Source: Streptomyces atroolivaceus (GTDB lineage Bacteria > Actinomycetota > Actinomycetes > Streptomycetales > Streptomycetaceae). Taken from it: DNA of 64,000 nucleotides. Where the stretch lies: positions 248,001-312,000 of the forward strand of contig NZ_JNXG01000004.1 of NCBI RefSeq assembly GCF_000717025.1. The letters run 5' to 3'. The notes under the pieces are model-generated. The model was not told where the DNA came from. It worked only from the letters and a program-made list of their open reading frames with translations, and ran no database searches. Positions 44,019-45,445 of this stretch are shown one piece after another. Made by a program: the position numbers and the translations under genes. Numbering within the stretch: position 1 is the stretch's first letter; each line of letters begins with the position of its first letter.

Positions 44019-44345
44019 TCACCTTCCGCGTACGGCCGCGGTGACCGCCAGTGCCATGGTTCCCGTCAGGACGGTCACCACGAGTGAGGCGAAGAACAGC
44101 ACCACCAGCCATCCAGGGGCCGCTCCGGTGACCGTCCCGTCCGCGGCCGCGCAGGCCACCTCCGTCGGGAAGACCTGCCTGCGTACGTCGTCGCAGGTGT
44201 TGGGCAGGTCGTCGTTGACGGCGTACGCCTGGATCCAGCACATGGCCCAGCTCGCCAGGAAGACGGCCAGCGCGCTGAACGAAACGGCCCACAGGTGGTT
44301 CGGGCCCGCCGGCCGCGGCGTACCGCCCCTCGACTCCGGTGACAT
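44019..44345 (-). CDS. Small two-helix membrane protein, hypothetical
   Basis: A 108-residue protein with a Pro/Gly-rich N-tail, two transmembrane segments (about 20-42 and 80-102) and an external loop containing three Cys (DDLPNTCDDVRRQVF, VACAAADG) that could form a disulfide. It resembles generic actinobacterial small membrane proteins only. It is monocistronic and convergent with the SLOG-fold gene. Start ATG 44345 has no strong ribosome site. Confidence 0.65.
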   Translation of the reverse strand: MSPESRGGTPRPAGPNHLWAVSFSALAVFLASWAMCWIQAYAVNDDLPNTCDDVRRQVFPTEVACAAADGTVTGAAPGWLVVLFFASLVVTVLTGTMALAVTAAVRGR

Positions 44346-44505
44346 GCGGGGAGCCTATCCGCACGGCGTCAGGACGGGGCGGGCGTCCCGGCCGGCGTCC
44401 GGTGGTGACGTGCGGGGTGGCGGGGCGCGCGGGCGCGGTTCCCGCAGCGCCAGCAGTCCTCGAAGGCCGCAGATGTGAGGCATCGTCAGGTGGGTGCCGG
44501 TCCGG

Positions 44506-44511
44506 TAGTGT
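44506..44511 (+). promoter_or_regulatory. -10 box of the leader transcript upstream of the HemK/PrmC-like gene
   Basis: TAGTGT at 44506-44511 with a poor -35; predicted start near 44518, about 20 nt before the AGGAGG of the leader ORF. Confidence 0.45.
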
Positions 44512-44538
44512 GACCCCTCCCGAGACCGGGACCGACCC

Positions 44539-44612
44539 AGGAGGTGAGACCCATTACCGCTTCAGCAGGCTGGGCGCTCACCCCTCGCCGTCGTGTGGCC
44601 GACCGGGCCTGA
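44539..44612 (+). CDS. Putative leader peptide (19-22 aa) with unusual start, upstream of a HemK/PrmC-like gene
   Basis: AGGAGG (44539-44544) is 8 nt before ATT at 44553; the frame reads ITASAGWALTPRRRVADRA and stops at TGA 44610-44612. A GTG at 44544 is in the same frame but overlaps the AGGAGG, so ATT initiation (as in E. coli infC) is the better-spaced choice. The peptide carries RRR (R-x-R type). Its codons 7-9 form one arm of two competing RNA stems leading to the downstream gene. The feature starts at the ribosome site. No homologue can be claimed from sequence alone. Confidence 0.5.
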
Positions 44613-44653
44613 GCGATCGCGGAGCGCCCATCGGTCATCCCGAAAGGCTCCGC
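44572..44653 (+). promoter_or_regulatory. Mutually exclusive RNA stems before the HemK/PrmC-like start codon
   Basis: Arm 1 GGGCGCTC (44572-44579, inside the leader ORF) pairs perfectly with GAGCGCCC (44622-44629). The overlapping arm 2 GCGGAGC (44619-44625) pairs perfectly with GCTCCGC (44647-44653), which starts in the AAAGG ribosome site and ends 4 nt before the ATG. Both stems share 44622-44625 and cannot coexist. Confidence 0.6.
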
Positions 44654-44656
44654 ACC

Positions 44657-45445
44657 ATGCAGGAACACGCCCCACCGCTCACCTTCCCCGCCCTCGTCAC
44701 CGCGCTCCGCGCCGCCGGCTGTGTGTTCGCCGAGGACGAGGCGGAACTCCTTCTCGCCTCAGCGGCGGACCCCGCCGGACTCGCCGCCATGCTGGAACGC
44801 CGTGCAGCCGGCCTGCCGCTCGAACACGTGGTCGGCTGGGCCGAGTTCTGCGGTCTGCGGATCGAAGTGGACCCCGGGGTCTTCGTGCCACGTCGGCGTA
44901 CCGAATTCCTCGTCCGGCAGGCTGTGGCCCTCGCGTCCGGCCGGGCGGTCGTGGTCGACCTCTGTTGCGGGACCGGCGCGCTCGGCAGGGCACTCGCGTC
45001 GTCGCTGCCCGAGGCCGAACTGCACGCCGCCGACGTGGAACCCGCCGCCGTGCGCTGCGCCCGGCGCAACGTGGGCGGGCGCGGGACGGTCTACGAGGGC
45101 GACCTCTTCACGCCCCTGCCCCGCTCGCTGCGCGGGCGGGTCGACGTGCTGCTCGCCAACGTGCCGTACGTTCCGACCGAGGACGTCGAGCTGCTGCCCG
45201 CCGAGGCGCGCATCCACGAGCCGCGCGTCGCGCTCGACGGAGGCGGTGACGGGCTCGACGTGCTGCGGCGGGTCGTCGCCGAGGCGGACGACTGGCTGGC
45301 CCCCGGCGGCAGTCTGCTGGTCGAGACGAGCGAGCGGCAGGCGGCGCGCGCCCGGGAGACGGTGGGCAGCGGCGGACTGACCGCGCGCGTGGTCGTCTCC
45401 GAGGAGCTGTACGCCACCGTCGTCATCGGGACCCGGCCGCGCTAG
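44657..45445 (+). CDS. HemK/PrmC-like putative protein N5-glutamine methyltransferase
   Basis: A 262-residue class-I methyltransferase. An N-terminal five-helix substrate domain (residues 1-80) contains LLASAADPAGLAAMLERR and the LEHVVGWAEFCGLRIEV linker. The SAM domain has VVVDLCCGTGALGRALA and, instead of NPPY, LLANVPYVPTEDVELLP, consistent with amide methylation of a glutamine. Full-length PrmC (release-factor GGQ methylase) is usually elsewhere near prfA, so this is a paralogue whose target is unknown. ATG 44657 has AAAGG 9 nt upstream, enclosed in a regulatory stem. Its stop-codon region is duplicated downstream. Confidence 0.8.
   Translation: MQEHAPPLTFPALVTALRAAGCVFAEDEAELLLASAADPAGLAAMLERRAAGLPLEHVVGWAEFCGLRIEVDPGVFVPRRRTEFLVRQAVALASGRAVVVDLCCGTGALGRALASSLPEAELHAADVEPAAVRCARRNVGGRGTVYEGDLFTPLPRSLRGRVDVLLANVPYVPTEDVELLPAEARIHEPRVALDGGGDGLDVLRRVVAEADDWLAPGGSLLVETSERQAARARETVGSGGLTARVVVSEELYATVVIGTRPR

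Follow-up and report, generated by a model that had tools for sequence, protein, structure and literature searches.

In ermC-type translation attenuators, a stalled ribosome frees the Shine-Dalgarno (SD) sequence of the next gene. For whiB7/wblC, PMC11550727 describes a gene that is off when a short upstream ORF (uORF) is translated and on when uORF translation is blocked. Actinobacterial ABCF genes are also reported to be induced by blocked uORF translation, and lincosamide/streptogramin A/pleuromutilin-type drugs to stall ribosomes at the uORF start codon (PMC12421871). The Rifamycin-associated element (RAE) lies in the 5' region of genes for rifamycin resistance, rox among them, as described in PMC10719064 and PMC12802891. 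Initiation at AUU outside infC is reported for pcnB (cited in PMC1780047) and for cvfC1 of S. aureus, a species in which extended SD sequences are described as accompanying non-canonical AUU and AUA starts (PMC13009471).

Here we analyze a leader of 118 nt (44539-44656, plus strand) in the window, a stretch of 64,000 nt of Streptomyces atroolivaceus DNA. It runs from the extended SD AGGAGGTGA up to the ATG at 44657 of a methyltransferase gene. The first-pass annotation had regarded expression from an untranslated leader as an unusual, reverse logic, which is already on record for whiB7/wblC (PMC11550727); it had also called an AUU start outside infC rare, as indeed it is, yet pcnB and cvfC1 precede this case. 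As a kind, the leader is most likely a translation attenuator; as a family whose AUU/AUC starts are kept across genera, it may be new. In the literature that we searched, mostly open-access journals and few subscription journals, we saw neither a description of this leader nor a further case of a leader ORF that retains AUU/AUC across many genera.

Anatomy and pairing of the leader

A short ORF with an ATT start and two mutually exclusive stems had been annotated in front of the methyltransferase gene, and re-reading of the sequence finds the ORF, stem and position coordinates all exact (Table 1). The ATT (44553-44555) lies 8 nt past AGGAGG, and the TGA stop occupies 44610-44612. The motif GGAGGTGR is present in 171 of 175 located leaders, a count that is partly circular, as the locators demanded a GGxGGT core. 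Stem A joins GGGCGCTC to GAGCGCCC by eight perfect pairs, and stem B joins GCGGAGC to GCTCCGC by seven; the two overlap at 44622-44625 and therefore cannot coexist.

Table 1. Features of the leader and of the gene behind it, in window positions.
Feature	Position	Strand	Basis
-10-like hexamer TAGTGT, possible leader promoter	44506..44511	+	Sequence reading; putative
Extended SD AGGAGGTGA of the leader ORF	44539..44547	+	Sequence reading
In-frame GTG within the SD, an improbable alternative to the ATT start	44544..44546	+	Without an SD of its own
Leader ORF, putative ATT start, 19 codons (ITASAGWALTPRRRVADRA), TGA stop	44553..44612	+	Conserved frame
Arm 1 of stem A, GGGCGCTC, inside leader codons 7-9	44572..44579	+	Perfect pairing with 44622-44629; covariation
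Arm 2, shared by stem A (44622-44629) and stem B (44619-44625)	44619..44629	+	Covariation
SD GAAAGG of the methyltransferase gene, in and beside stem B	44642..44647	+	(Nearly) invariant alignment columns
Arm 3 of stem B, GCTCCGC	44647..44653	+	Perfect pairing with 44619-44625; covariation
Putatively controlled gene, PrmC-related methyltransferase, 262 aa	44657..45445	+	TIGR03704 profile score

Hexamers resembling TA-(G/A)-TGT are visible by eye, uncounted, in many of 30 orthologous upstream regions, and a sigma-70 consensus scan returned no promoter. No terminator-like site was found in positions 44380-44720 of the window, the one sequence scanned, which favors translational control.

Taken by itself, the RNA of the window shows no unusual folding stability (z -1.24, with 18 of 200 shuffles equal or better), so that the case rests on comparison among leaders. 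The stems were assessed in an alignment of 37 leaders: that of the window and those of 36 loci chosen, for ease of alignment, from the 56 that bear the leader, which excluded most leaders with long inserts. In this alignment, pairing reaches 94.0% in stem A and 94.5% in stem B; none of 500 shuffles reaches either value, and slid pairings give 41.6-66.6% and 46.1-67.1%, respectively. The covariation score is 0.121 for stem A (0.092 in shuffles, at most 0.078 when slid) and 0.283 for stem B (0.145 and at most 0.100); relatedness among leaders is allowed for by the slide control, not by the shuffle control. Conserved and covarying arms, the property on which the first-pass annotation had staked its two stems, are thus found for both.

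Double-change cells number 11 in stem A (2.7 in shuffles) and 20 in stem B (7.5), and 10 of the 11 in stem A fall in two extension pairs absent from the window's own stem. The core of stem A is nearly invariant and says little for or against pairing; replacements of GC by AU and of UA by CG also occur in it across gene classes. Further pair types are no higher than in shuffles for either stem (stem A 474/500, stem B 139/500), and pairs with change on both sides show no excess over shuffles in stem B (212/500). Beside the SD, an inner hairpin has 91.2% of its cells paired, without a covariation signal, and RNAalifold alone returns stem A together with two short further helices.

The gene behind the leader scores 407 bits with the TIGR03704 profile (cut-off 248.8) and 181.2 bits with the PrmC profile, below the equivalog cut-off of 199.1, which supports its annotation as a PrmC/HemK paralogue. 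A separate PrmC above the cut-off (239.6 bits) is encoded elsewhere in the same genome. Downstream of the methyltransferase gene and on the same strand lies a glutamine synthetase adenylyltransferase gene (NF010707, 46239-49235).

Gene classes behind related leaders

Of 150 genomes of the genus, 97 contain a BLASTN match to the leader; in several of them (for instance G003 and G117), the match sits at another gene. Among 80 methyltransferase loci from a search of GTDB contigs, the locator identifies the leader at 56, including loci of Kitasatospora, Actinomadura, Nonomuraea, Streptosporangium, and Crossiella; at the other 24 it is absent or too diverged for the locator, although L013 and L074 visibly have it. 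A leader pattern searched across the taxonomic family with at most two mismatches matches at some locus in 264 of 297 genomes (the backward control pattern gives 4 matches), and a covariance model built on 43 leaders in 83 of 246 genomes of the class, covering 33 of 103 genera. These counts mix two genome collections, in which a species may count twice, and L060 and L064 are identical over 120 nt. The genome of the window has this leader copy only, the next covariance-model match having an E-value of 0.89. A plasmid search returned one match, a lead only, in a chromosome-sized Nonomuraea record that carries no annotation at that place. At one methyltransferase locus (L046), the leader is apparently deleted, and AGGTGAGACCCATTACC directly precedes the methyltransferase frame (last 60 bases before 3001).

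Class calls cover 90 loci among the covariance-model matches listed, window included. Of these, blastp classed 67: 24 methyltransferase (MT, window included), 17 HYD2 and 11 HYD, both hydrolase-like, 10 rifampin monooxygenase (Rox) and 5 GNAT acetyltransferase loci. Seven are patatin-like (PAT) by sequence, and tblastn classed 14 of the remaining 16 (5 MT and 9 hydrolase), leaving L260 and L266 unclassed. The rifampin monooxygenase behind leader L114 scores 805 bits with NF033145 (cut-off 800) and matches PDB 5vqb, and the acetyltransferase of L181 and the patatin-like protein of L218 are both above Pfam cut-offs. The hydrolase-like protein of L117 matches an esterase structure with an E-value of 2.9e-32; its Pfam alpha/beta-hydrolase scores stay short of gathering, and no Pfam match exists for L149, which represents HYD2, so that the name hydrolase is tentative. 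Patatin-like genes stand under a related leader at L218, L220, L242, L246, L256, L259, and L263. With relatives standing before genes that resemble antibiotic-inactivating enzymes, the leader appears to represent a widespread form of gene control.

Coding signal and start codon

A stop is reached no later than arm 2 in the frame of the ATT in 79 of 82 MT leaders, and in the +1 and +2 frames in 27 and 13; an earlier count over 50 loci gave 50 in the ATT frame against 16 and 8. Codon differences were analyzed in 74 distinct leaders of the 76 in standard register, out of 94 MT leaders. Single-base differences at codons 2-6 are synonymous in 51% of cases, compared with 33% expected, and at codon 3, where Ala is almost constant and the third base free, in 95% compared with 37%. 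Shifted frames have no synonymous excess at codons 2-5. Beyond codon 9 the coding signal is weak (codons 10-13: 0.38 against 0.29 in frame 0, and 0.36 against 0.33 in frame +2), and codons 10-14 are variable. Frame conservation and the synonymous pattern argue for a genuine small ORF, as had been annotated.

Ala is important for some context-dependent antibiotics. At codon 3 it is present in 85 of 94 MT, 19 of 19 Rox, 19 of 22 HYD, 11 of 19 HYD2, and 2 of 6 GNAT leaders.

The ribosome halt on RRR that the first-pass annotation envisaged is not borne out. Besides being subject to the variation at codons 10-14, RRR occupies codons 12-14 in 6 of 94 MT leaders (the window, L001, L002, L012, L016, and L262, with PRRR in the first five) and is found anywhere in the leader ORF in 9 of 94. 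Macrolide-type stalling on RRR (+X+) was rejected, the motif not being conserved. The leader was also considered as an N-terminal extension of the methyltransferase, the ORF at 44339-45445 being open through it. This was rejected for the random relation of the frames: the methyltransferase frame falls in the three leader registers at 19, 19, and 18 of 56 loci, so the leader is no N-terminus, and a stop in the methyltransferase frame lies between leader and gene at 36 of the 56.

Of 56 loci, 48 have arm 1 at 19 nt from the start, and two others deviate from this distance by whole codons. At L020, L026, L062, L063, L067, and L069, arm 1 is off by one base and hence in another frame, so that the arm appears essential and the peptide over it does not. 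The patatin-like leaders L218 and L220 likewise have arm 1 in another frame (GAP, not WVL), the arm being kept rather than the peptide over it. Three of nine located leaders of a further hydrolase subclass, HYD3 (L171, L251, and L253, with ATC/GTT starts), have no in-frame stop before arm 2, so that leader translation would run on toward the downstream gene.

The start position was read in 175 of 187 leaders tried (missed: MT 6, HYD 2, HYD3 2, HYD2 1, PAT 1); 30 genus-BLASTN loci, 17 of 30 family-pattern loci, and L122, L124, L125, and L175 were left out of this census. Among 94 MT leaders it is ATT in 64, ATC in 21, GTT in 4, GTC in 2, and ATG in 3, that is, ATT/ATC in 85 and one of the four RTY codons in 91. 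Conversely, the 72 leaders that precede Rox, hydrolase (HYD and HYD2), GNAT, and patatin genes have ATG/GTG (RTG) in 69 cases (Rox 19/19, HYD2 19/19, GNAT 6/6, PAT 6/6, HYD 19/22), and HYD3 has ATC or GTT in all nine located leaders. This exclusivity by class provides the strongest argument for the ATT being a start, and it supports the non-AUG start of the first-pass annotation. From this pattern we infer that a non-AUG AUU/AUC codon is kept by selection in the MT class and that the leader is translated from it.

The infC gene of the same genome (L275, G000:C17:237381-237884) seems to start with ATC AGC GCC behind GAGGAGG. Between the upstream stop and this site all codons are known and none is an in-frame ATG, GTG, or TTG, which suggests that such starts are in use in this organism.

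A-runs in front of the -35 are a feature of WhiB7/WblC promoters. Under a loose rule of our own, canonical-start leaders have such a run in 53 cases and lack it in 19, and for non-canonical leaders the numbers are 7 and 96 (Fisher p 5e-21, which is overstated given the kinship among leaders and the confounding of gene class with start codon). Exceptions are the patatin leaders (0 of 6 with the run) and the non-canonical HYD leaders (2 of 3 with it).

Ribosome position, stem choice and known systems

On balance we think it probable that the leader belongs to a widespread actinobacterial family of translation attenuators operated by the ribosome, in which an elongating ribosome turns the gene off and an absent or start-held ribosome leaves it on. 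The leader ORF, behind its very strong SD, would start at AUU, where most other gene classes have AUG/GUG. A ribosome elongating through codons 4-9 would open stem A, upon which arm 2 would pair with arm 3 beside the methyltransferase SD and the gene would be off. With no leader initiation, or with the ribosome held on the start codon, stem A would form first and block stem B, and the methyltransferase would be translated. The poor AUU codon behind a strong SD would make leader elongation rare and keep the gene partly on, the output of methyltransferase responding to the success of initiation at this codon.

Folding of MT leaders with a masked ribosome favors this direction of control, although it does not fix it. 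The means cover 82 MT leaders under an assumed footprint of -14 to +15; arms were available in 144 of the 175 located leaders (lost: MT 12, HYD3 9, GNAT 5, PAT 3, ROX 2). In free RNA, stem A has a mean of 0.18 and stem B of 0.61. A ribosome on the start codon shifts these to 0.45 and 0.41, a ribosome at codon 4 to 0.00 and 0.74, and at codon 8 stem A is abolished with stem B at 0.72. As stem B predominates in free RNA of full length, stem A would have to win by kinetics; in MT RNA ending just past arm 2 it reaches 0.47, and the window's own RNA favors it in folding. For Rox, HYD, and HYD2, free RNA gives 0.00-0.01 for stem A and 0.72-0.81 for stem B, and RNA ending past arm 2 gives stem A only 0.06 in Rox and 0.08 in HYD2. 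With stem A nearly absent in Rox both at equilibrium and in shortened RNA, the model is weak there and arrest at the leader stop codon is a fair alternative for that class.

Occlusion of the ribosome-binding site (RBS) by stem B is a prediction of modeling, in which the position of the ribosome has little effect on RBS openness. This openness in MT leaders is 0.37 in free RNA, 0.43 with the ribosome at the start and 0.33 with it at codon 8; in the other classes it is 0.42, 0.39, and 0.44, which speaks against the model there. Mean unpairedness of the SD gave no useful difference as a switch readout and was replaced by stem-specific pairing.

Arrest at the stop, following classic logic, is possible for the family as a whole, though we do not expect it. 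A ribosome at or near the leader stop would cover the 5' edge of arm 2, hinder both stems and leave the SD open, the signal being slow termination or late-leader arrest. Such a signal would suit a PrmC-like feedback on release-factor modification, but is a poor fit to Rox, hydrolase, and acetyltransferase targets. The stop holds a median distance of 13 nt from arm 2 (interquartile range 12-13, range 1-60, 79 MT leaders), although the ORFs range from 42 to 90 nt in length. When it is masked, pairs between arms 2 and 3 drop from 11.5 to 7.4 in MT leaders and from 14.3 to 9.1 in the others, and RBS openness rises from 0.37 to 0.43 and from 0.42 to 0.56, respectively. Under a finer arm definition, stem B decreases in HYD2 (0.77 to 0.53) and in MT (0.61 to 0.51), but not in Rox (0.81 and 0.81). 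The late codons that an arrest would involve (10-14) are not conserved, and stem A, which nonetheless covaries, has no clear role in this scheme.

Initiation of the ORF at the GTG within the SD (44544), which would make the ATT an ordinary Ile/Val/Met codon, is unlikely. This GTG shares the frame of the ATT at standard spacing, and an Ile, Val, or Met codon at the ATT position might simply encode an internal hydrophobic residue; in six MT leaders the position is GTT or GTC, codons that to our knowledge are not accepted as starts. However, the GTG has no SD in front of it, the ATT position is exclusively ATG/GTG in the located Rox, HYD2, GNAT, and patatin leaders (50/50), and in L256 a spacing one base longer puts the GTG of the SD out of frame with the ATG.

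It is very unlikely that the ORF is incidental and the leader a conserved RNA structure recognized by a ligand or protein: the strong primary conservation of AGGAGGTGAGACCC and of the arms in the 37-leader alignment, the non-AUG leaders without a stop, and the six of 56 loci with arm 1 in another frame would agree with it, but the coding signature and frame conservation do not, and Rfam has no match at gathering score in the window or in 6 other leader loci, an implausible miRNA on the opposite strand (E-value 4.5) being the only other match. A riboswitch or other known RNA was rejected for want of an Rfam match.

Within the attenuator reading, we offer as a speculative extension that the non-AUG leaders are built-in sensors of initiation fidelity, while the AUG/GUG versions sense ribosome-blocking drugs at drug-inactivating genes. 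IF3-controlled proofreading at AUU/AUC would decide whether the ribosome departs, and hence whether stem A or stem B forms; the same RNA chassis with AUG/GUG would sit at drug-inactivating genes with WhiB7-type promoters. If true, one switch family would be tuned by the start codon alone. The attenuator reading itself, if true, describes a large family of leader-ORF switches, absent from the Rfam version searched, that is shared by a translation-related methyltransferase and by other genes, rifampin monooxygenase among them. It would suggest looking for the function of TIGR03704 in translation or the drug-stress response, and it makes a role of non-AUG initiation outside infC testable by one-base swaps.

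The leader resembles ermC-type attenuators in that its ORF carries an SD and that a stem is predicted to cover the SD of the next gene; it differs in that a ribosome on arm 1 is predicted to close that SD and in having no conserved arrest motif. The A-run, found by our loose rule in 53 of 72 canonical-start leaders, is shared with WhiB7 promoters. A short uORF, two exclusive RNA folds, and a predicted off state under uORF translation are further traits in common with whiB7/wblC as described in PMC11550727. There, the off-structure is a Rho-independent terminator, whereas here none was found in the window and stem B borders the SD of the gene; in addition, the MT leaders have a non-AUG start.

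The Streptomyces ABCF attenuators are5sc, tiaA, and lmrC also combine a small uORF with a conformational switch. They differ in being presented as predicted terminator/anti-terminator switches, with tiaA responding in translational reporters only, and MLV and MVGDDDISG are given as their uORFs (PMC12421871). The RAE and the present leader both precede rox-type genes. Compared by description, the RAE is a 19-bp palindrome that may bind a factor (PMC10719064, PMC12802891), in contrast to a leader of about 120 nt with an ORF. With infC, which encodes IF3, the MT leaders share a putative non-AUG AUU/AUC start behind a strong SD, and the ATC AGC GCC of the organism's own infC resembles the ATY-ANC-GCN of the leaders. 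In infC this start belongs to a full gene under IF3 control, whereas here it would open a leader ORF placed before another gene.
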